Assembly: GCA_944392735.1 (NCBI GenBank)
Contig: CALXXR010000073.1
Span: forward strand, 1-37,258
Reading direction: 5' to 3'
DNA: 37,258 nt
From: an uncultured Spirochaetaceae bacterium
Lineage (GTDB): Bacteria > Spirochaetota > Spirochaetia > Sphaerochaetales > Sphaerochaetaceae
Positions within the stretch are counted from its first letter, which is position 1, and every line of letters starts with the position of its first letter. Made by a program: the position numbers and the translations under genes. Under the pieces are notes generated by a model. That model was given only the letters and a program-made list of their open reading frames with translations. It was not told the DNA's origin and did not search any database. Positions 16,370-32,035 of this stretch are shown here, in pieces.

Positions 16370-17458
16370 ATGAACGAAGCGGTGAAGGAAAAGCTCGAGA
16401 CCCTCATAAAGGGATTCATACCCGTCCTCTATCAGGAGGATGATCCGGATTACGTATCCGGGAAGTTCGCGCCGAACATCGAAGGAAGGGAGCGCTACAG
16501 ATACTGGGAATGGACCCAGGGAGTGGGCCTCTTCGGACTATGGAAGCTCTTCGAGAAGACGAAGGACGAGAGATACCTGAAGATGCTCACATCCTACTAC
16601 GATGAGAGGATCGCATTCGGGCTTCCGGGGAAGAACGTGAATACGATGGCCCCCATCCTTGCCCTCACATACCTCGGGGAATACCTCGGAAGCGAGAAGT
16701 ACCTCTCCGTCGCCAGGGAGTGGACCGGCTGGCTCTTCGACGGCGGCCTTCCAAGGACTCCGGAAGGAGGCTTCCAGCACAGGACCTCCGATGATGTGAA
16801 CGAAGGCGAGCTCTGGGACGACACGCTGATGATGAGCGTCCTGCCGCTCGCCAACATGGGGCGCATCGATGGCCGCGAGGAGTACATCGACGAATCGGAA
16901 TACCAGCTCCTGCTGCATATCGAGCAGCTTGCGGATCCGATCACGGGTCTCTGGTACCATGGCTACACATACAAGGGGAAGAACCACTTCGCCGGTGCCT
17001 TCTGGGGCCGCGGCAACAGCTGGGCGACGATCGCCCTTCCGCTTTTCGAGGAGATCATCCACCTCAGGCCAAGCCTCAGGAGATATGTCTCGACCGTACT
17101 GACGAGGCAGGTCGAGGCGATCGGGAAGCTCCAGGACGAGTCGGGATTCTGGCATACGCTCCTTGACCACGAGGATTCCTACCTCGAGTCCAGCTGCACG
17201 GCAGGCTTCGGATACGGAATACTCCTCGGCATAAGGCTTGGGCTCCTCGATCCATCATACAGGCGCATCGCCGAGAAGGCCCTGCCTGCGGTGCTGGGAG
17301 CGATCGACGAGAACGGAGTGCTTGAGCTCTGCTCCTATGGAACGCCGATGGGAAGGGAGAGCGTCGACTGGTACAAGGAGATACCGATCCATCCGATGCC
17401 TTATGGACAGGCGATGGCGATGCTCTTCCTCATCGAAGCCATGGACGCGGGGCTATGA
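16370..17458 (+). CDS. GH105 unsaturated rhamnogalacturonyl/glucuronyl hydrolase (YteR/YesR-like)
   Basis: This 362-residue (alpha/alpha)6-barrel enzyme removes the 4,5-unsaturated uronic acid left by polysaccharide lyases, by hydrating the double bond. The key block WDDTLMMSV carries the catalytic Asp (Asp150/Asp151), followed by GLWYHGY, FWGRGNSWATIALP and the YLESSCTAGFGYGI block that line the substrate tunnel; HPMPYGQAMAMLFLIEA is near the end. Length is normal and there is no signal peptide, so it acts on imported short oligosaccharides. A stop codon sits two codons upstream of the ATG, and only a weak GGAT precedes it. It is 106 bases after the toroid gene and overlaps the MFS gene by ATGA. 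Confidence 0.9.
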   Translation: MNEAVKEKLETLIKGFIPVLYQEDDPDYVSGKFAPNIEGRERYRYWEWTQGVGLFGLWKLFEKTKDERYLKMLTSYYDERIAFGLPGKNVNTMAPILALTYLGEYLGSEKYLSVAREWTGWLFDGGLPRTPEGGFQHRTSDDVNEGELWDDTLMMSVLPLANMGRIDGREEYIDESEYQLLLHIEQLADPITGLWYHGYTYKGKNHFAGAFWGRGNSWATIALPLFEEIIHLRPSLRRYVSTVLTRQVEAIGKLQDESGFWHTLLDHEDSYLESSCTAGFGYGILLGIRLGLLDPSYRRIAEKALPAVLGAIDENGVLELCSYGTPMGRESVDWYKEIPIHPMPYGQAMAMLFLIEAMDAGL

Positions 17459-20842: not shown

Positions 20843-21235
20843 ATGAAGAAGATTCTCCTCATCGCGGCCGCGGCAATGCTCCTCTCCTCATGCGACATCT
20901 CCATACCGCTTGGCGGAGGCGATGCCGGTACGGACACATTCATCGTCCCCTCCGATTTCCATGGCGTGTGGCGCGGGGAGAGCGGGGATCTCACGATCTC
21001 GGCGGAGAGGATATGCGGCGATGTCGGTGGAGAGATGATCGATACCGAATCCCTCATCGAGGATGGGGCCACCATCTACCATGAGGAGTCGGGAAGGAAT
21101 GCCTACGCGCTTGTCTTCAGCCCCGGCAGCGGGATATACAGCCTACTGCTGAGCATCGAAGATGATGGCAGCCTCAGCATCGCCGTCGACTATGGCGGAG
21201 GCCGCATCGCATACGGCCTCTACCGCAGGATCTAG
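20843..21235 (+). CDS. Small hypothetical lipoprotein
   Basis: This 130-residue protein has a lipoprotein signal (MKKILLIAAAAMLLSSC, Cys17) and no family I can name. The mature part is short, Gly- and Ser-rich, with alternating strands (FHGVWRGESGDLTIS, YALVFSPGSGIYSLLL, SLSIAVDYGGG) like a small lipocalin- or beta-sandwich-type domain; the 'F-x-G-x-W' opening is common in small secreted beta-proteins. A TTG at 20837 is in frame, but ATG-AAG-AAG at 20843 begins the signal peptide. There is no Shine-Dalgarno. Its stop TAG and the convergent GH28 stop are the two strands of one CTAG. Confidence 0.75.
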   Translation: MKKILLIAAAAMLLSSCDISIPLGGGDAGTDTFIVPSDFHGVWRGESGDLTISAERICGDVGGEMIDTESLIEDGATIYHEESGRNAYALVFSPGSGIYSLLLSIEDDGSLSIAVDYGGGRIAYGLYRRI

Positions 21236-22554
21236 AGCCCCTTGGATGAAAATCCCCTGTTCTCGGCGTCGGCAGAGTCCTCGATGCGGATATCGCTGAC
21301 GAACTCTCCGTTGGCATCATCGAGGAAGACGGCGCTGCAGTCCTCCATCAGAAGCCCGTCGACGCCGGAGATGAAGTATGCCGAAGAGCCGTGCTTCACG
21401 ACCTCCGTCCCTTCGCCTGGCCTGTAGTCATAGAGTCCCTTCTCCCACTTCGATGATGTCCTCATCTCGATGCGCACATTCCGCATCCTGATGTTCCGGA
21501 CCTTGTGGCTGCCATGGATGAAGACGCCGTTCTCGCCGCTTGCGAGGATGTTCTCGAATACGACGTTCTCGATCGTTCCGGAAGACTTGCCAGCGACCCT
21601 GTCTATCGAGGTGATGGCGATCGGCTCGGCCGTTCCCCACCAGCAGGGGGCGAAACGCCTCGTCTCGATGGTGATGTCGGAGAAGATGGCGTTCCTGACA
21701 GAGCCTCCATCCCTGATCTGTATCGAGATGCCCCTGTTCGTACCGGAGATGGTGACGCCGCGGACGACGATGTTCCTGAAGTCCCCCGTCCCCTCGGTGC
21801 CGATCTTCAGCGCCGCCGACGTCGACTTGAGCGTGCAGTCGGCGATCACGATGTTCTCCGTCGGACCGTACTCCATGTTGCCCGCGGAGCTCTTGAGGCA
21901 GATGCAGTCATCTGCAGCCTCGACATGGCATCCGATGATCCTCACATTCGAGGAATGGTCGGGATCTATGCCATCGGAATTCGCGACATCGAGCGGATTG
22001 AGTATCCTGATATTGCTGATCAGGACATCGTCGCATCCGGCCGGATGGAGCGTCCAGAACGGCGCATTGCAGAGCGTTATATCGCTGACGGTCACATGGG
22101 AGCAGTGCTCGATGTAGATCATCGTCGGCCTGGGATAGAAGTCTCCTGTGACATAGTACTGCGAGACGCGCTTGACGAACGCATAGCAGTTTCCGTCGAT
22201 CACGCCATCGCCCGTTATCGCGATATCATCGGCATCGACGGCATAGATGAACGCGTAGGAAGGCTTGAGCGTCACAGGCGTTCCTGCGATCGAGACGCCT
22301 TCATCCTTCCTGCCCTCATTGGGATGGACGTAATCCTCGAGCACGGGAGTCGCAAGCAGCTTAGAGCCCCTGACGACATGGAGATCGACGCCCTTCCTGA
22401 GGATGATCGAGGATGAGAGATAGACCCTGTTCCCATCCAGGACGACGCGGCCGCCGCCTGCTGCGCTGGCCTCATCCACCGCCTTCTGTATGAAGCGGGC
22501 ATCATCGCTTCTGCCATCGCCCACGGCACCATATGACAATACATCGTAATCCAT
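21232..22554 (-). CDS. GH28-like (pectin) glycoside hydrolase with non-classical active site
   Basis: This 440-residue right-handed beta-helix protein begins with the pectate-lyase-superfamily motif YGAVGDGRSDD and has the three GH28 carboxylates: NSDGID (Asp194) and ADDC (Asp215, Asp216). The usual catalytic-site G-H-G is TSAA (residues 245-248) before LKIGTEG, and R-I-K is S-I-Q (277-279). Rhamnogalacturonan-type GH28 enzymes are also known to depart from the polygalacturonase pattern at these sites, so the substrate may be rhamnogalacturonan or another uronide. It has no signal peptide. The start at 22554 follows AAGGAGG; an ATG at 22584 is less likely. Together with GH105 it suggests intracellular pectin-fragment breakdown. 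Confidence 0.85.
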   Translation of the reverse strand: MDYDVLSYGAVGDGRSDDARFIQKAVDEASAAGGGRVVLDGNRVYLSSSIILRKGVDLHVVRGSKLLATPVLEDYVHPNEGRKDEGVSIAGTPVTLKPSYAFIYAVDADDIAITGDGVIDGNCYAFVKRVSQYYVTGDFYPRPTMIYIEHCSHVTVSDITLCNAPFWTLHPAGCDDVLISNIRILNPLDVANSDGIDPDHSSNVRIIGCHVEAADDCICLKSSAGNMEYGPTENIVIADCTLKSTSAALKIGTEGTGDFRNIVVRGVTISGTNRGISIQIRDGGSVRNAIFSDITIETRRFAPCWWGTAEPIAITSIDRVAGKSSGTIENVVFENILASGENGVFIHGSHKVRNIRMRNVRIEMRTSSKWEKGLYDYRPGEGTEVVKHGSSAYFISGVDGLLMEDCSAVFLDDANGEFVSDIRIEDSADAENRGFSSKGL

Positions 22555-22653
22555 CTGAAAGCCTCCTTCTCCAGCACCTGCCATGCACGCGCCATACGTT
22601 CATTATGGACCAAAAGGATGGAGGCGGTCATGCGCTTTGCAGCCTCTTCCGTA

Positions 22654-22745: not shown

Positions 22746-23051
22746 ATGTTGCCATTGTTGACGAATATGCCGAAGGATGTGCTCATTGCACAGCTTAAGG
22801 ATGGTCTTGTGCTCCTGGTGCTCGGAATGGGAACTGTCTTCGTATTCCTCGTCATCCTGATCTTCGCAACCAAGCTTATGAGCAGGATCATCATGAACAT
22901 GGAAGGAAGGCACCACGACCAGGCTCCAGCAGCCGCGCCGGTGCAGGCCGCGGCAGTGCAGGTCCAGCAGAAGGCTGCGCCAGCTCCCCAGGGAGATGAT
23001 GCGGCGGTCGCTGCAGCCATAGCAGCTGCATACGACAGATCCAGGAATTGA
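22746..23051 (+). CDS. oadG: Oxaloacetate decarboxylase gamma subunit (OadG)
   Basis: This 101-residue protein has one membrane helix near its N-terminus (LKDGLVLLVLGMGTVFVFLV), then a basic patch and an Ala/Pro/Gln-rich linker, the layout of OadG, which ties the biotin-bearing alpha subunit to the membrane pump. It starts an oadG-oadA-oadB unit, with gaps of 16 and 13 bases. A GTG at 22731 is in frame, but ATG at 22746 follows AGGAG with 7 bases spacing. The linker composition resembles that between the biotinyl domains of OadA. Confidence 0.9.
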   Translation: MLPLLTNMPKDVLIAQLKDGLVLLVLGMGTVFVFLVILIFATKLMSRIIMNMEGRHHDQAPAAAPVQAAAVQVQQKAAPAPQGDDAAVAAAIAAAYDRSRN

Positions 23052-23067: not shown

Positions 23068-25542
23068 ATGAGCAAGAAGAAAGTCGATTTCATGTGCACT
23101 GCGTTCCGCGACGGATTCCAGTCGGTCTACGGCGCACGTGTATTCACAAAGGATTTCATGCCGGCTGTGGCTGCGGCCAGGGAAGCGGGCATCACGCATT
23201 TCGAGGCAGGCGGCGGAGCCAGGTTCCAGTCGCTCTATTTCTATACGAACGAGGATGCGTTCGAGATGATGGATGAATTCAGGCGCGTAGCCGGACCCGA
23301 CGCCAATCTCCAGACGCTTGCCCGCGGCGTCAACGTCGTAGGCCTCGATTCCCAGCCCAGGGACATCATCAAGCTCCATGCGCAGCTCTTCAAGAAGCAC
23401 GGCATGACGACGATCAGGAACTTCGACGCGCTCAACGATGTGAACAACCTCATCGACAGCGGCAAGGCAATCCACGATGCAGGCCTCAAGCATGAAGTCA
23501 CCGTCACGATGATGAGCCTCCCCGAGGGCGTCACCGGCGCACATACGCCCGAGTTCTACGAGAGGATCCTCCGCGAGATCCTCGACGCAAGCATCCCATT
23601 CGACTCCGTCTGCTTCAAGGATGCATCAGGCACATCGACTCCGCACAACGTATATGAGACGATCAAGAGGGCAAGGAAGCTCCTCGGACCGAACGTGAAG
23701 ATCGTATTCCACTCCCACGAGACGGCGGGCGTATCGATCGCGCAGTACATGTCGGCACTCGACGCAGGCGCAGACAGCATCGACCTCTCGATGACGCCCT
23801 GCTCCGGCGGAACATGCCAGCCCGACATCCTCACGATGTGGCACGCATTCAGGGGCACCGACTACACGCTCGATGTCGACATCAACAAGGTCCGCGACGC
23901 TGAGAAGGTCTTCGAGGAGTGCATGTCCGACTACTTCCTGCCTCCTGAGGCAACGGCAGTCAACCCCGAGATCCCGTTCTTCCCGCTTCCTGGCGGAGCG
24001 CTCACGGCGAACACGCAGATGCTCAGGGACAACAACCTCATGGACAAGTATCCGCAGATCGTCGAGGCCATGGGCGAGACCGTAGCGAAGGGCGGCTTCG
24101 GAACATCCGTAACGCCTGTTTCGCAGTTCTACTTCCAGCAGGCATTCAACAACGTCATGTTCGGACCGTGGAAGAAGTTCGCTGAAGGCTATGGAAAGAT
24201 GGTCCTCGGCTACTTCGGGAAGACTCCAGTCGCTCCCGATCCGGAGGTCGTGAAGCTCGCTTCCGAGCAGCTCCACCTCGAGCCCACGACGGAGAAGGTC
24301 GTCGACATCAACGACAAGGATCCCAAGAAGGGCGTTGAGGCGGCAAAGAAGATGCTCGAGGATGCAAACCTCCCGATCACCGATGAGAATATCTTCATCG
24401 CAGCAGCCTGCAAGGAGAAGGGAATCCTCTATCTCACGGGCAAGGCGAAGGTGAACGGAGTCAGGCTCAAGAGCGAGATGAAGAAGGAAGAGGAAGCCAA
24501 GAAGGCAGCTGCGGCACCGAAGGCTGCCAATGCCGGAAACGGAGACTACACGGTCACCGTCAACGGACGCGCCTATGGCGTCAGGCTCCAGAACGGCACG
24601 GCAACGGTCAATGGCGTTGCCTATCCATATGCAATCGCTGACGGAATCGCAGCAGCGCAGCAGGCAGCACCTGCACAGCAGGCCGTCGTCATGGGCGCCG
24701 AGGAGGTCAAGGCTCCGATGCCGGGCCTCGTGCTCCGCGTCAACGTCAAGGTCGGCGACGCAGTGAAGAAGGACCAGGTTCTCATGGTCATGGAGGCCAT
24801 GAAGATGGAGAACGAGATCTACGCTCCTTGCGATGGAGTCGTTTCCTCCATCCCTGTCTCCCAGGGCCAGCAGCTCCAGTCGGGCGAGACGCTCATGACG
24901 ATCGGAGGCGTAGCTCAGGCAGCCCCAGCCCCGCAGCCGGCAGCTCAGCCAGCTCCTGCAGCAGCACCTGTGCAGCAGGCTGCTCCGGTTCAGCAGGCAG
25001 TCGTAACAGGCGCTGAGGAAGTCAAGGCTCCGATGCCGGGCCTCGTGCTCCGCATCAACGTCAAGGTCGGCGACGCAGTGAAGAAGGACCAGGTTCTCAT
25101 GGTCATGGAGGCCATGAAGATGGAGAACGAGATCTACGCTCCCTGCGATGGCGTCGTCTCCTCCATCCCTGTCTCCCAGGGCCAGCAGCTCCAGTCGGGC
25201 GAGACGCTCATGACGATCGGAGGCGTGGCTCAGGCAGCCCCTGCTCCGCAGCCGGCGGCTCAGCCAGCTCCCGCGGCAGCACCTGTGCAGCAGGCTGCTC
25301 CCGCTCCGCAGGCAGCACCCGCAGCTGATGGAAGGACGATCGAGGCACCGATGCCCGGCCTCGTGCTCCGCTTCAGCGTCAAGGTCGGCGATGTGGTCAA
25401 GAAGGATCAGGTGCTCATGGTCATGGAGGCCATGAAGATGGAGAATGAGATCTATGCTCCCTGCGATGGCACGGTGCAGCAGATCCTCGTGAACCAGGGA
25501 GACCAGCTCCAGTCTGGCGCTCCACTGATGATCATCGGCTAA
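23068..25542 (+). CDS. oadA: Oxaloacetate decarboxylase alpha subunit (OadA) with three biotinyl domains
   Basis: This 824-residue protein decarboxylates oxaloacetate to pyruvate and passes the carboxyl to biotin; OadB then releases CO2 and pumps sodium out. The carboxyltransferase barrel (about 1-470) has the metal and catalytic residues: Asp15 in FRDGFQS, Lys184 in CFKDASG, His215 and His217 in HSHETAG. After a charged linker come three biotinyl domains, each with EAMKME, with biotin-accepting lysines at 579, 684 and 790. The normal alpha subunit has one. The first two domains are almost identical at the DNA level and the third is more diverged. Ala/Pro/Gln linkers of about 30-35 residues separate them. 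The extra swinging arms could raise turnover or reach between subunits. Confidence 0.93.
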   Translation: MSKKKVDFMCTAFRDGFQSVYGARVFTKDFMPAVAAAREAGITHFEAGGGARFQSLYFYTNEDAFEMMDEFRRVAGPDANLQTLARGVNVVGLDSQPRDIIKLHAQLFKKHGMTTIRNFDALNDVNNLIDSGKAIHDAGLKHEVTVTMMSLPEGVTGAHTPEFYERILREILDASIPFDSVCFKDASGTSTPHNVYETIKRARKLLGPNVKIVFHSHETAGVSIAQYMSALDAGADSIDLSMTPCSGGTCQPDILTMWHAFRGTDYTLDVDINKVRDAEKVFEECMSDYFLPPEATAVNPEIPFFPLPGGALTANTQMLRDNNLMDKYPQIVEAMGETVAKGGFGTSVTPVSQFYFQQAFNNVMFGPWKKFAEGYGKMVLGYFGKTPVAPDPEVVKLASEQLHLEPTTEKVVDINDKDPKKGVEAAKKMLEDANLPITDENIFIAAACKEKGILYLTGKAKVNGVRLKSEMKKEEEAKKAAAAPKAANAGNGDYTVTVNGRAYGVRLQNGTATVNGVAYPYAIADGIAAAQQAAPAQQAVVMGAEEVKAPMPGLVLRVNVKVGDAVKKDQVLMVMEAMKMENEIYAPCDGVVSSIPVSQGQQLQSGETLMTIGGVAQAAPAPQPAAQPAPAAAPVQQAAPVQQAVVTGAEEVKAPMPGLVLRINVKVGDAVKKDQVLMVMEAMKMENEIYAPCDGVVSSIPVSQGQQLQSGETLMTIGGVAQAAPAPQPAAQPAPAAAPVQQAAPAPQAAPAADGRTIEAPMPGLVLRFSVKVGDVVKKDQVLMVMEAMKMENEIYAPCDGTVQQILVNQGDQLQSGAPLMIIG
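24706..25539 (+). repeat. Tandem repeat of biotinyl-domain coding units in oadA
   Basis: Three units begin at 24706, 25021 and 25339, so the periods are 315 and 318 bases (105 and 106 codons). Units 1 and 2 differ by only a few bases over the domain and linker, while unit 3 differs in linker and C-terminal strand (VQQILVNQGDQLQ). This points to recent duplication of unit 1 or 2, and makes the locus prone to recombination and assembly collapse. Confidence 0.9.
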
Positions 25543-25555
25543 GGGGTAATCGGAA

Positions 25556-26800
25556 ATGGAAGCAATACTGAATGGACTTGTAAGGCTCTGGACTTCGACA
25601 GGAATCTACGGATTCCTGTTCCCGGAGGCCCTGCAGGAATCATGGGGAGCTGGTGCTGCTGAGGGCGGTGCTGTCGGTCTCGGCTGCGCCATCATGATCC
25701 TCGTGGGCTTCGTGCTCCTCTATCTGGCGATCAAGAAGGGATTCGAACCGCTTCTGCTGATTCCCATCGCAATGGGATGCATCCTTTCGAACATCCCCTC
25801 CGCATTCATCGCAGCAGTCGATCCGACATCCGGCGACGCAGGATTCATCAGGATCCTCTACGATGCAGGAATCGAGTCGGGGCTCTTCCCCGTCCTGATC
25901 TTCATGGGCGTTGGTGCAATGACCGATTTCGGACCGCTCATCGCGAATCCGAAGACGCTCCTGCTTGGAGCGGCTGCCCAGCTCGGCATCTTCACAGCCC
26001 TCATCGGAGCTCTGCTGCTGTCGTTCCTTCCGGGAATCAACTTCGATCTCAACGTCGCTTCGTCGATTGGAATCATCGGAGGAGCAGATGGTCCTACCGC
26101 CATCTATGTGACGAGCCGTCTGGCCCCTGAGTATCTTGGATCGATCGCCGTAGCTGCCTACTCATACATGGCGCTCGTGCCTATCATCCAGCCGCCTATC
26201 ATGAGGGCCCTCACGACGAAGAAGGAGAGGCTGATCAGGATGCAGCAGCTCAGACCGGTATCCAAGGTCGAGAAGATCATCTTCCCGATCATGGTCATCA
26301 CGATCTGCGCCATCCTCCTGCCATCGGCATGCCCGCTCATCGGAGCGCTCATGTTCGGCAATCTTGCAACGGAATGCGGAGTCATCAAGAGGCTCTCTGA
26401 CACGATGCAGAATGCTCTGATGAACATCGTCACGATCTTCCTCGGACTCTCCGTCGGCTCCAAGATGGCTGCGGACAAGTTCCTCAACCTCGAGACGCTC
26501 GGAATCCTCGTTCTCGGCATGGTCGCATTCGGAGTCGGTACCGCTGGCGGCGTCCTCCTTGCGAAGCTGATGAACAAGATCGACCCGAAGCACCCAGTCA
26601 ATCCTCTCATCGGATCGGCTGGCGTCTCCGCTGTACCTATGGCAGCCCGCGTCTCCAGCAGGGAAGGCCAGAAGGAGGATACGCAGAACTTCCTCCTCAT
26701 GCATGCCATGGGTCCGAACGTATCCGGCGTCATCGGCTCTGCAGTCGCTGCTGGCGTCCTCATCTCCGTCGTACCGATGATGATGAGCGTCTTCGCCTGA
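25556..26800 (+). CDS. oadB: Oxaloacetate decarboxylase beta subunit (OadB), sodium pump
   Basis: This 414-residue, highly hydrophobic protein decarboxylates carboxybiotin and exports sodium ions. Family marks are present: [11 protein letters not shown] containing Asp178 (the sodium-site Asp), [33 protein letters not shown] and [18 protein letters not shown] near the C-terminus. Length is normal. The start at 25556 follows AAGGGG. It ends the oadGAB unit and is followed by a hairpin. The energy of decarboxylating oxaloacetate is thus stored as a sodium gradient that DctPQM and MATE-type transporters can spend. Confidence 0.95.
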
Positions 26801-27833: not shown

Positions 27834-28325
27834 ATGCCGGGAAAGAGAGAGAACCATATATCATGGGATGAGTACTTCATGGGGATAGCGGTGCTTTCAT
27901 CGATGAGGTCGAAGGATCCCAACACGCAGGTGGGTGCCTGCATCGTATCGCCGGACAGGAAGATCGTCGGTGTCGGATACAATGGATTCCCGATCGGCTG
28001 CTCGGATGATGATCTCCCCTGGGACCGTGAAGGGGAATGGCTCGAGACGAAGTATCCATATGTCTGCCATGCAGAGCTCAACGCGATCCTCAATTCAACC
28101 ATGGCGAATCTCAAGGGAGCAACGCTCTATGTAGCGCTCTTCCCCTGCAATGAGTGCGCCAAGGCGATCATCCAGTCAGGAATCAGGAAGATCGTCTACC
28201 TTTCGGATAAATACGAGACAAGCGACTCCACGCTCGCCAGCAAGAGGATGCTGAAGGAGGCAGGAGTCGAATTCGAACCGCTCGTTACCGAGCGCAAGGA
28301 GCTCACGATCTCGCTCAGGGCGTGA
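27834..28325 (+). CDS. Deoxycytidylate (dCMP) deaminase family protein
   Basis: This 163-residue zinc enzyme converts dCMP to dUMP for thymidylate synthesis. The active site is complete: His79 and the proton-shuttle Glu81 in CHAELNAI, and Cys105 and Cys108 in FPCNECAK. The N-terminal SWDEYFMGIAVLSSMRSKDPNTQVGACIV block is highly typical of the bacterial dCMP deaminase/ComEB group. Strong AGGAGGG ribosome site. It lies 25 bases after the hydrolase gene, with its own promoter overlapping that stop. Confidence 0.95.
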   Translation: MPGKRENHISWDEYFMGIAVLSSMRSKDPNTQVGACIVSPDRKIVGVGYNGFPIGCSDDDLPWDREGEWLETKYPYVCHAELNAILNSTMANLKGATLYVALFPCNECAKAIIQSGIRKIVYLSDKYETSDSTLASKRMLKEAGVEFEPLVTERKELTISLRA

Positions 28326-28396
28326 CCGAGAGCCGGATTACGGATTGGTATCACAGCCACAGGCTCAGCGGCCAAGCCGATGATGTGGAGACGCAT

Positions 28397-30952
28397 ATGA
28401 GGATTATGGTGAATGGCCATGAATGCACTCCAGCGGAGGACATGACCCTCCTGGAGTACCTTCGGGGCTCACTGGGACTGACGGGGACGAAGAACGGATG
28501 CAGCGAAGGCGCATGCGGGGCGTGTTCCGTGATCATCGACGGGAAGCTGAGGAAGGCATGCACGCAGAAGCTGTCCAAGCTCGATGGTGCAAGCATCACG
28601 ACCATCGAAGGGCTTTCAGAGAGGGAGAGGGATGTCTATGCATACGCCTTCTCCTCCGTCGGCGCCGTGCAGTGCGGATTCTGCACTCCAGGCATGGTGA
28701 TGGCGGCCAAGGCCCTGATAGATGCCAACCCCGCCCCGACGCATGCCGATGTGAAGAAGGCCATCAGGGGCAACATCTGCAGATGCACAGGCTATGTGAA
28801 GATCGAGGAGGCGATATTCCTTGCAGCGCGCATCATACGCGACGGCCTTCCCGTACCGGCGGATGACAGGGATCCCCGCCTCTCCGGCGGCATGGTCCGG
28901 ATCGATGCACGGGAGAAGACGCTTGGCACAGGCATATACACCGATGACATCAGGATCGACGGAATGCTCCACGCTTCTGCCGTCAGATCGCCGAAGCCGC
29001 GCATCAGGCTCAAGGGAATCGACACGAGCGAGGCCGAGAAGGTGCCTGGATTCGTCGCAGTCATCAAGGCGGAGGATGTACCTGTGGACATCCACGGGCA
29101 TATCATCCAGGACTGGCCCGTGCTGATAGAGGAAGGCCATACAAGCGCCTATGTCGGGGATGCAATCTGCATCGTCGTCGCGGAGAGCGAGAAGGCGCTT
29201 GAGGAGGCGAAGAGCCTCATCCATCTGGATTATGATGAGCTTGATGGCGTATACGACCCCAAGGATGCCCTCACCGAGCGCATACAGGTGCATGAGGGAC
29301 GGTCGAACATCATGGACCATGAGCGCATCGTGCGCGGGGATGTCGCGAAGGCGTTTGCCGATAGCGATATCATCATAGATGAGGAGTACGCCACCCCATT
29401 CACCGAGCATGCATTCATGGAACCAGAGTGCGCTGTTGCGATGCCATACGGCGACGGCGGCGTATTCGTGTATGCCTCGGACCAGTCGGTATACGACGAC
29501 AGGCGCGAGATAGCGAGGATGCTGGACATACCGGAGGAGAAGGTACGCGTGCAGGCAACGCTCGTCGGAGGCGGTTTCGGCGGCAAGGAGGACATGTCTG
29601 TGCAGCATCATGCCGCACTCGCAGCATGGCTCCTGAAGAAGCCCGTAAAGATCAGGCTGACGAGGCAGGAGAGCCTGATGGTCCACCCCAAGCGCCATCC
29701 GATGCGCATGCATCTCACCCTTGGCGCGGACAGCAGGGGCCGCATCAAGGGCATGAAGGCCGAGATCATAGCCGACACAGGTGCATACGCCTCCCTTGGA
29801 GGCCCGGTCCTGCAGAGGGCATGCACCCACGCCTCCGGTCCATATGACTTCCAGAACTTCGAGGTCGATGGGAAGGCCATCTACACGAACAATGTACCTG
29901 CAGGAGCATTCAGGGGCTTTGGCGTGACGCAGTCCTGCTTCGCGATCGAATCTGCGCTGGACGAGCTCGCCGCCAAGGTCGGAATCGATCCGTTCCAGAT
30001 CAGGATGCTCAATGCGCTGAGGCCTGGGGCGGTGATGCCGAACGGCCAGATCGCAGGTCCCGACACGGGCATCGTCGAATGCCTGGATGCGGTGAAGGAC
30101 GCATACTATGCCTCTCAGCGCACCGGCATAGCCTTGGCGATGAAGAACAGCGGAATCGGCGTCGGAATGCCCGACGAAGGCCGCTGCACGCTATCGGTGG
30201 AGGATGGAAGGATACATATCAGATCATCAGCAGCATGCATGGGACAGGGAATCGGAACCGTCATGCTGCAGATCGCTTCGAATGTCCTGGAGCTTCCTCC
30301 CTCATCATTCGTAGTCGAACCCCCTGATACCGAACGCACACCGGACAGCGGGACATCCACGGCCTCCCGGCAGACGGCATTCACAGGAGAGGCGGTGAGG
30401 CTGGCAGCGGAGAAGATGAAGGCCGATCTGGCGGATCATGGGCTGACGGAGCTGGAAGGACGCGAATACGATGCGGTCTTCGACTTCCCCACCGATCCTA
30501 TCACAAGCACCAAGCCCCATCCCGTCTCGCACATCGCGTACTCCTATTCGGCGCAGGTCGCAGAGCTCGACGAGGAAGGCAGGGTGAAGAGGATCACGGC
30601 CGCATGCGATGCAGGAACCGTCATCAACCGCAAGGCCATAGAGGGCCAGATCGAAGGCGGCGTGCTGATGGGCATGGGCTATGCGCTCACTGAGGACTTC
30701 ATCACGGAGGATGGCTTCGTGAAATCGAAGTACGCCACGCTGGGGCTTCTGAGGAGCACCGACAGGCCGGAGATCGAAACCAGGCTCGTGCATGCCGAAG
30801 GCAAGCTGCCGACATCGTTCGGCGCGAAGGGGATCGGCGAGCTCTGCACAATACCGACAGCCCCCGCGATAGCCAACGCGTACAGGCGCATCGATGGCAG
30901 GAGAAGGAACGCCCTCCCACTTGCCGACACGCCATACTCGAGGAAGCGGTGA
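28397..30952 (+). CDS. Single-chain molybdenum hydroxylase (xanthine dehydrogenase-like, TIGR03311-type)
   Basis: This 851-residue protein joins two iron-sulfur domains to a molybdopterin domain in one chain. The plant-type [2Fe-2S] cluster uses Cys35, 40, 43 and 55, and the second uses Cys93, 96, 128 and 130 (CGFCTPG, CRCTGY). The molybdenum part has GGGFGGKED, PAGAFRGFG and the catalytic-Glu region FGAKGIGEL. No FAD subunit is encoded nearby. This fused layout is that of the selenium-dependent xanthine dehydrogenases of anaerobes, where selenium is a labile ligand. The frame is open from a GTG at 28322, but ATG 28397 follows GGAG with 6 bases spacing and starts the ferredoxin-like fold. Substrate may be a purine or other N-heterocycle. 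Confidence 0.88.
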   Translation: MRIMVNGHECTPAEDMTLLEYLRGSLGLTGTKNGCSEGACGACSVIIDGKLRKACTQKLSKLDGASITTIEGLSERERDVYAYAFSSVGAVQCGFCTPGMVMAAKALIDANPAPTHADVKKAIRGNICRCTGYVKIEEAIFLAARIIRDGLPVPADDRDPRLSGGMVRIDAREKTLGTGIYTDDIRIDGMLHASAVRSPKPRIRLKGIDTSEAEKVPGFVAVIKAEDVPVDIHGHIIQDWPVLIEEGHTSAYVGDAICIVVAESEKALEEAKSLIHLDYDELDGVYDPKDALTERIQVHEGRSNIMDHERIVRGDVAKAFADSDIIIDEEYATPFTEHAFMEPECAVAMPYGDGGVFVYASDQSVYDDRREIARMLDIPEEKVRVQATLVGGGFGGKEDMSVQHHAALAAWLLKKPVKIRLTRQESLMVHPKRHPMRMHLTLGADSRGRIKGMKAEIIADTGAYASLGGPVLQRACTHASGPYDFQNFEVDGKAIYTNNVPAGAFRGFGVTQSCFAIESALDELAAKVGIDPFQIRMLNALRPGAVMPNGQIAGPDTGIVECLDAVKDAYYASQRTGIALAMKNSGIGVGMPDEGRCTLSVEDGRIHIRSSAACMGQGIGTVMLQIASNVLELPPSSFVVEPPDTERTPDSGTSTASRQTAFTGEAVRLAAEKMKADLADHGLTELEGREYDAVFDFPTDPITSTKPHPVSHIAYSYSAQVAELDEEGRVKRITAACDAGTVINRKAIEGQIEGGVLMGMGYALTEDFITEDGFVKSKYATLGLLRSTDRPEIETRLVHAEGKLPTSFGAKGIGELCTIPTAPAIANAYRRIDGRRRNALPLADTPYSRKR

Positions 30953-30988: not shown

Positions 30989-32035
30989 ATGACGATCTAC
31001 GAGCACTTGCGAAGCCTGCTTGCCATCCCTTCCCCCTCATGGAGGGAGGATGGCGTGAGCGCATACATCATCGACCGCATGACCGAGTGCGGCTACGCAT
31101 TCAGGGATGATGAATGCGGCAATCTCCTCTTCTGGCGCTCCATGGATGGCCCCAAGCCGATGCTATGCTGCCACATGGACACTGTCGAGCGTGCCGTCGA
31201 ACCGCACGTCCTCGAGGATGACGAAGCATTCTTCACAGATGGACTCACGGCGCTTGGAGCCGATGACAAGGCAGCCATAGCCGCCGTGCTCGCAGCTGCA
31301 GAGGAGCGGCCTGACGCGCTCTTTCTGTTCACAAGGGCGGAGGAGCTGGGACTGCAGGGATCGGCAAAGCTGAAGAAGGAGTTCTTCATGCCGTTCGACA
31401 TCTCGGGAGCATATGTGCTGGATGCGGAAGGAGATGTCGGCACCTGCATCATCTCGGCACCGGGCAAGAGCAGGATCGAGCTCACCATCCATGGCAGGAC
31501 AGCCCATGCAGGCTTCTCCCCGGAGGATGGGATCAACGCAGCGAAGGCTGCTGCAGTGGCAGTCGCCGCAGCCCCTACCGGCAGGATCGACGATGAGACC
31601 ACATGCAATATCGGATCGCTGATGGCGCCCGGATCCACGAACATCGTTCCCGATGCGGCCACGGCCATATATGAGGTGAGGTCGCTCTCAGACGAGAAGC
31701 GCAGGAAGGTGTCGGATGAGATCGTAGGCTGCTTCAGGAAGGCGGCAGAAGCATGCGGCGCCACGCTTGAGGAGCATCTGACGGAGCTCTATTCACCCTA
31801 CTCCCTCGACCGATCGGATCCGGCGCTTGGAAAGGCCATGGAAGCCATCAGAGGCATCGGCCGTGAGGCAAGGCTCAAGGCAACTGCAGGCGGAAGCGAT
31901 GCCAACTGCATCAGGCGCCTCGGCATCGATGCCATCACGCTCTCGATCGGATACGAGAATGCGCACAGCGTCTCGGAGAGGATAGCCAAGGAAAGCATGG
32001 AGGAGCTGCTGAGGCTCATCCGCAAGCTCGTCTAG
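30989..32035 (+). CDS. M20-family metallopeptidase (peptidase T-like)
   Basis: This 348-residue zinc peptidase shows the M20 ligands: His62 and Asp64 in CCHMDTV, the bridging Asp in LGADDKAA (Asp92), Glu118/Glu119 in TRAEELGLQG, Asp145 in VLDAEG and a late His in ENAHSVSE. A lid or dimerisation domain with HGRTAHAG interrupts the catalytic domain as usual. It is probably a cytoplasmic tripeptidase or related aminoacylase. It is 36 bases after the molybdenum hydroxylase. Its stop shares CTAG with the convergent RNase D gene. Confidence 0.88.
   Translation: MTIYEHLRSLLAIPSPSWREDGVSAYIIDRMTECGYAFRDDECGNLLFWRSMDGPKPMLCCHMDTVERAVEPHVLEDDEAFFTDGLTALGADDKAAIAAVLAAAEERPDALFLFTRAEELGLQGSAKLKKEFFMPFDISGAYVLDAEGDVGTCIISAPGKSRIELTIHGRTAHAGFSPEDGINAAKAAAVAVAAAPTGRIDDETTCNIGSLMAPGSTNIVPDAATAIYEVRSLSDEKRRKVSDEIVGCFRKAAEACGATLEEHLTELYSPYSLDRSDPALGKAMEAIRGIGREARLKATAGGSDANCIRRLGIDAITLSIGYENAHSVSERIAKESMEELLRLIRKLV

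Follow-up and report, generated by a model that had tools for sequence, protein, structure and literature searches.

The alpha subunits of characterised oxaloacetate decarboxylases (OAD) end in one BCCP domain (PMC7274780). A first departure from this layout is the OadA of Geobacter bemidjiensis, Gbem_1454, which has two biotin attachment domains in a genome with neither a beta nor a gamma subunit; the authors of that genome paper stated that the OadA homologues of sodium pumps have only one biotin domain (PMC2996986). In the glutaconyl-CoA decarboxylase of Clostridium symbiosum, two slightly different carriers, GcdC1 and GcdC2, are borne on Ala/Pro linkers (PMC7145394). Finally, the E2 chains of pyruvate dehydrogenase carry from one to three tandem lipoyl domains on Ala/Pro linkers, their number depending on the species (PMC6270654); a preliminary description of the DNA studied here had named these chains as the analogy, and it was the right one to choose. 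A search of the open literature found no description of an OadA with three domains, or with several domains and linked to a pump, the G. bemidjiensis protein, with two domains and no pump, being the only multi-domain OadA there.

A complete oadG-oadA-oadB cluster

In the window, i.e. the whole stretch of 37 258 nucleotides that was analysed, an oadA-type gene for an alpha subunit of 824 amino acids (23068..25542) is flanked by oadG and oadB, all three on the + strand, so that the cluster is complete. The oadG-type gene (22746..23051) encodes a gamma subunit of 101 amino acids, consisting of a single hydrophobic helix and an Ala/Pro/Gln-rich tail, which scores 68.5 bits with Pfam OAD_gamma against a cut-off of 27. 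The oadB-type gene (25556..26800) encodes a Na+-translocating beta subunit of 414 amino acids, which matches Pfam OAD_beta and reaches 545 bits with TIGR01109 (cut-off 190.6). The oadGAB order is kept in nearly all loci of relatives for which flanking sequence is available, and oadG adjoins oadA in most of them. In the alpha subunit, the carboxyltransferase and PYC_OADA (association) domains occupy 23068..24486 (+) and precede three biotinyl domains; Pfam recognises PYC_OADA, matches the HMGL-like domain weakly and assigns Biotin_lipoyl to three stretches (E 1.3e-60). Residues D15, K184, H215 and H217 are invariant in 41 aligned relatives and align with 5S transcarboxylase, at positions which we take to be those of its metal ligands. 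An HMGL-like carboxyltransferase with metal-ligand residues, a PYC_OADA domain and a C-terminal biotinyl domain are what characterises an alpha subunit of the OadABG type; the classical OadA has exactly one biotinyl domain, and this one has three.

The preliminary description had proposed the alpha subunit of a sodium pump, and the beta subunit bears this out. In an alignment of 313 positions with Salmonella OadB, whose structure is solved, 67% are identical, and the subunit conserves all of D203, S382, N412, E40, R304, N311, N373, G377 and Y229 (Salmonella numbering). Among them, Asp203, Ser382 and Asn412 are Na+-site residues of the Salmonella protein, and the residues found to be functionally essential there are kept here (PMC7274780).

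The source genome, a 93% complete bin, amounts to 1.83 Mb spread over 174 contigs. Two pectin-type glycoside hydrolases, GH88 (16370-17455) and GH28 (21235-22584), lie near the pump genes and suggest growth on plant pectin. On the other side, 28322-30949 (+) encodes a single chain of 876 amino acids which unites 2Fe-2S domains with the two molybdopterin-binding domains known from the xanthine dehydrogenase family; this gene adjoins a deaminase (27834-28322) and an M20 peptidase (30989-32032), with which it may form a purine-type catabolic cluster. As a source of oxaloacetate, PEP carboxykinase of the ATP type was considered and discarded, there being no match for it in the genome; pyruvate kinase is present.

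Three biotinyl domains on disordered linkers

A profile search of the genome located biotinyl domain 1 at 24700..24903, domain 2 at 25015..25218 and domain 3 at 25336..25536, all on the + strand. The first two are of an internal type, hereafter A, domain 2 being a near-copy of domain 1, and the third is of a terminal type, C. The biotin-site lysines, each encoded by AAG within an EAMKM motif, are exactly those that had been claimed, Lys579, Lys684 and Lys790 (codons at 24802, 25117 and 25435). The linkers, 24904..25014 between domains 1 and 2 and 25219..25335 between domains 2 and 3 (+), are predicted to be disordered and are as rich in Ala, Pro and Gln as first described (36-47%, 19-25% and 17-19%, respectively). 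Domain and linker together form a tandem unit of 315 bases, or 105 codons, the second copy of which (24964..25278, +) is 93% identical to the first (24649..24963, +) over 300 bases. Within the 68-residue domain, units 1 and 2 share 98% of their DNA and 99% of their protein sequence, while unit 3 shares 77-78% of its DNA with either, so that the contrast noted initially between two recent near-copies and a different third unit holds. Only one amino-acid change separates the domains of units 1 and 2, and the low pN (0.006) relative to pS (0.12) indicates that the copies are under purifying selection. An AlphaFold2 model built with 41 homologues places separate beta barrels at residues 545-612, 650-717 and 756-823, with a pLDDT mostly between 73 and 96 for the barrels and of about 30 for the linkers, and every biotin lysine in a tight strand-strand turn of its barrel. 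If the model is right, the tail would resemble three beads on flexible strings.

Domain number among relatives

Our survey comprised 112 distinct alpha subunits from Spirochaetia and was not random, closeness to the window being part of the choice. Two biotinyl domains occur in 68 of them, one in 29 and three in 14, including that of the window, and one subunit has none. A single domain had been presented as the normal state; this is correct for the characterised OAD alpha subunits but not for the relatives surveyed, which, as the comparison of related genomes established, are not all one-domain and among which, at least for those of Sphaerochaetaceae type, two domains is the commonest state. 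The survey covers almost only Spirochaetota (the best 80 loci of the contig scan are all from spirochaetes), and nearly all its genomes are metagenome bins, so that some of the two-domain counts could be collapsed repeats. However, two-domain genes are also found in the strain Bullifex porci NM-380-WT-3C1 (L071) and in a single-contig genome (G179, L144), hence multi-domain subunits are no artefact of binning. The named near relatives of the source comprise Candidatus Ornithospirochaeta as well as other uncultured gut Spirochaetaceae/Sphaerochaetaceae; ten of the three-domain genes belong to the window's genus and four to a second, Bullifex-like genus. In one genome (G035) two contigs (C125 and C9; L178 and L177) each hold a part of the gene and end with differing internal-type copies, and here the number of biotinyl domains is at least three and probably four, unless strains were mixed. 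The one-domain relatives mostly keep the same oadA-oadB context. Two of the two-domain genes (L108, L109) have no close oadB directly downstream, which indicates that multi-arm alpha subunits occur in other settings too. A same-family OadA-type ORF of 578 amino acids (L166, in G371) is one in which the domain profile found no biotinyl domain, and a search of plasmids gave distant homologues only, including decarboxylases with a separate biotin protein.

Repeated gain and loss of the internal domain

In a tree of single domains, which are short sequences with weak support, domain 3 of the three-domain genes tends to group with domain 2 of the two-domain genes, and domains 1 and 2 tend to group with domain 1 of the latter. 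The ancestral layout in the group was therefore probably one internal (A) and one terminal (C) domain. Judging from the sequences compared, two- and three-domain genes have orthologous terminal domains, and the extra domain is always a copy of A: 105 codons, internal domain and linker together, were duplicated in tandem and in frame to give the third arm, with the terminal domain kept. Within a gene, the A copies are 90-98% identical in DNA in all 14 cases, against 67-86% for A and C.

The phylogeny of the catalytic core (DNA of 53 relatives) indicates that in Ornithospirochaeta and the Bullifex-like genus copy number has shifted repeatedly from two to three or back: well-supported branches force at least nine such changes, with the 5th to 95th percentiles over bootstrap trees being 9 to 9, and a topology with all three-domain genes in one clade fails the AU test (p 8e-95). 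A single origin of the third domain is thereby ruled out. Thus, the recent expansion that had been proposed is correct insofar as units 1 and 2 are recent, but it was no one-off event, twin copies being alike in 14 of 14 genes. At silent sites the A copies of a gene differ less (0.04-0.45) than its core does from that of the nearest relative (0.24-0.56) in 13 of the 14 genes, e.g. 0.09 versus 0.39 for the gene in the window; the exception is L006 (0.25 versus 0.24). This points to recurrent tandem duplication or gene conversion, accompanied by loss, and the data appear to fit either process. Duplications would arise when repeated domains and linkers slip against each other or recombine unequally.

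What the extra arms may do

Our preferred reading, to which we give a probability of roughly 0.7, is that the gene product is the alpha chain of a Na+-translocating decarboxylase which depends on biotin and most likely acts on oxaloacetate, and that its carrier arm has been multiplied; the extra arms may well be functionally useful. The single biotin protein ligase found in the genome would biotinylate all three lysines, and the carboxyltransferase would load CO2 from oxaloacetate, the substrate which we infer from the family, onto any of the three biotins. The arms would then swing to the beta subunit, where decarboxylation would drive Na+ out. With three arms per chain, a complex could hold up to eighteen biotins. 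At the beta site, carboxybiotin would gain in local concentration and in reach through the extra arms, and a loaded biotin should more often be present there; the arms might also buffer the pump against incomplete biotinylation, as is thought to be the case for the extra lipoyl domains of pyruvate dehydrogenase E2. It is from such considerations that we infer a functional gain.

This gain is the only element denied by the strongest of the alternatives, a neutral turnover of copy number in a recombination-prone repeat, with one, two or three arms working equally well; the architecture and the assignment to a pump are compatible with it. The frequent gain and loss of the third arm suggests that its benefit is small or nil, and the nine or more changes among only 53 close relatives, as well as the 29 relatives which do with one domain, speak for neutrality. 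On the other hand, the domains are under strong purifying selection with their biotin lysines intact, and two domains are widely kept, with distinct internal and terminal types, which counts against neutrality. We consider neutral turnover a serious contender, though one that falls somewhat short of even odds. One may also speculate, in the opposite direction, that gut spirochaetes tune a primary Na+ pump by adding and removing arms, from one up to three of them and in G035 probably four; arm number would then be a fast-evolving and functionally meaningful trait of a core bioenergetic enzyme, the internal arms being interchangeable and the terminal one conserved; as matters stand, this proposal is rather doubtful.

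Another possibility is that the additional arms have a role in regulation or work for other partners, by passing CO2 to another carboxyltransferase or by forming a pool of biotin acceptors that titrates the ligase. The ligase (L168:1234-2196, 320 amino acids) has an extra N-terminus which, by eye, looks like a helix-turn-helix, as in the bifunctional BirA type, and the two-domain OadA of G. bemidjiensis has been suggested to cooperate with another decarboxylase (PMC2996986). But no other carboxyltransferase gene adjoins the cluster, and we regard this explanation as improbable.

An equally poor prospect is that the protein is the CT-BCCP subunit (PycB) of a two-subunit pyruvate carboxylase and no pump subunit at all. 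The best model for the alpha subunit is indeed the NCBIfam PRK09282, 'pyruvate carboxylase subunit B', with a score above the cut-off, whereas the oadA equivalog TIGR01108 gives 417.4 bits only (cut-off 756.5), so that the protein is not a member of the latter. Being below this cut-off and above that of the broader model, it is best viewed as an OadA-type subunit of a diverged subfamily; to this extent the initial identification as OadA stands, and as a member of the equivalog it does not. Against PycB, the gene sits between oadG and oadB, and no dedicated biotin carboxylase partner was found in the genome (93% complete), where the single Biotin_carb_C match lies beside AccB. Since AccB is also the only other biotin carrier found and its neighbour, AccC, the sole biotin carboxylase, a pyruvate carboxylase was rejected for want of a partner. 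Taken together with the conserved OadB residues and the lone ligase, this makes the pump the better supported assignment.

The weakest objection, that assembly of the bin doubled a single domain or merged variants from several strains, can draw on the 174 contigs of the source and on contigs that break inside the array in three genomes (G006, G012 and G035), but it is very hard to sustain: no exact repeat in the array is longer than 88 bases and none of its 89-mers recurs anywhere in the window, so that k-mers of 89 or more tell the copies apart, as reads of 150 bases would, the reading frame is intact, unit 3 is clearly diverged, and the 14 distinct genes with this layout come from many different bins and assemblies, several of them on contigs of more than 100 kb (some of 206 kb and 312 kb). 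The three-domain architecture is real, and chance is excluded.

Comparison with described systems

Whether carrier-domain enzymes profit from more than one swinging arm is a question addressed so far mostly with engineered forms of pyruvate dehydrogenase. In the present group, arm number varies in nature among close relatives, a natural experiment that bears on the number of swinging arms such an enzyme can use, and since these differences occur on catalytic cores that are 95-100% identical, the effect of one, two or three arms on a primary Na+ pump could be measured directly. A single biotin domain in pump-associated OadA, as given by textbooks and by one published statement, is likewise in need of correction.

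Among the described systems, the E2 chains of pyruvate dehydrogenase have carriers of the same domain superfamily, likewise in tandem and on Ala/Pro linkers, but these bear lipoyl instead of biotin, are N-terminal and take part in another chemistry; the Pfam matches of the window's alpha subunit include neither an E2 core nor a PSBD, so that the two may work alike without belonging together. Glutaconyl-CoA decarboxylase is a Na+-pumping biotin decarboxylase, but its carriers GcdC1 and GcdC2 are separate subunits and its carboxyltransferase subunit, GcdA, is of another kind. Gbem_1454 shares with the present OadA the possession of more than one biotin attachment domain, yet it has two instead of three and is without pump subunits, whereas the window's gene lies between oadG and oadB. 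The OadABG pump of Klebsiella, Salmonella and Vibrio has the same three subunits, an alpha chain with carboxyltransferase, association and biotinyl domains, and the same Na+-site residues in beta; between Klebsiella oadA and the alpha subunit of the window identity is no more than about 27%, and where the alpha chain of the known pump has one BCCP domain, this one has three.
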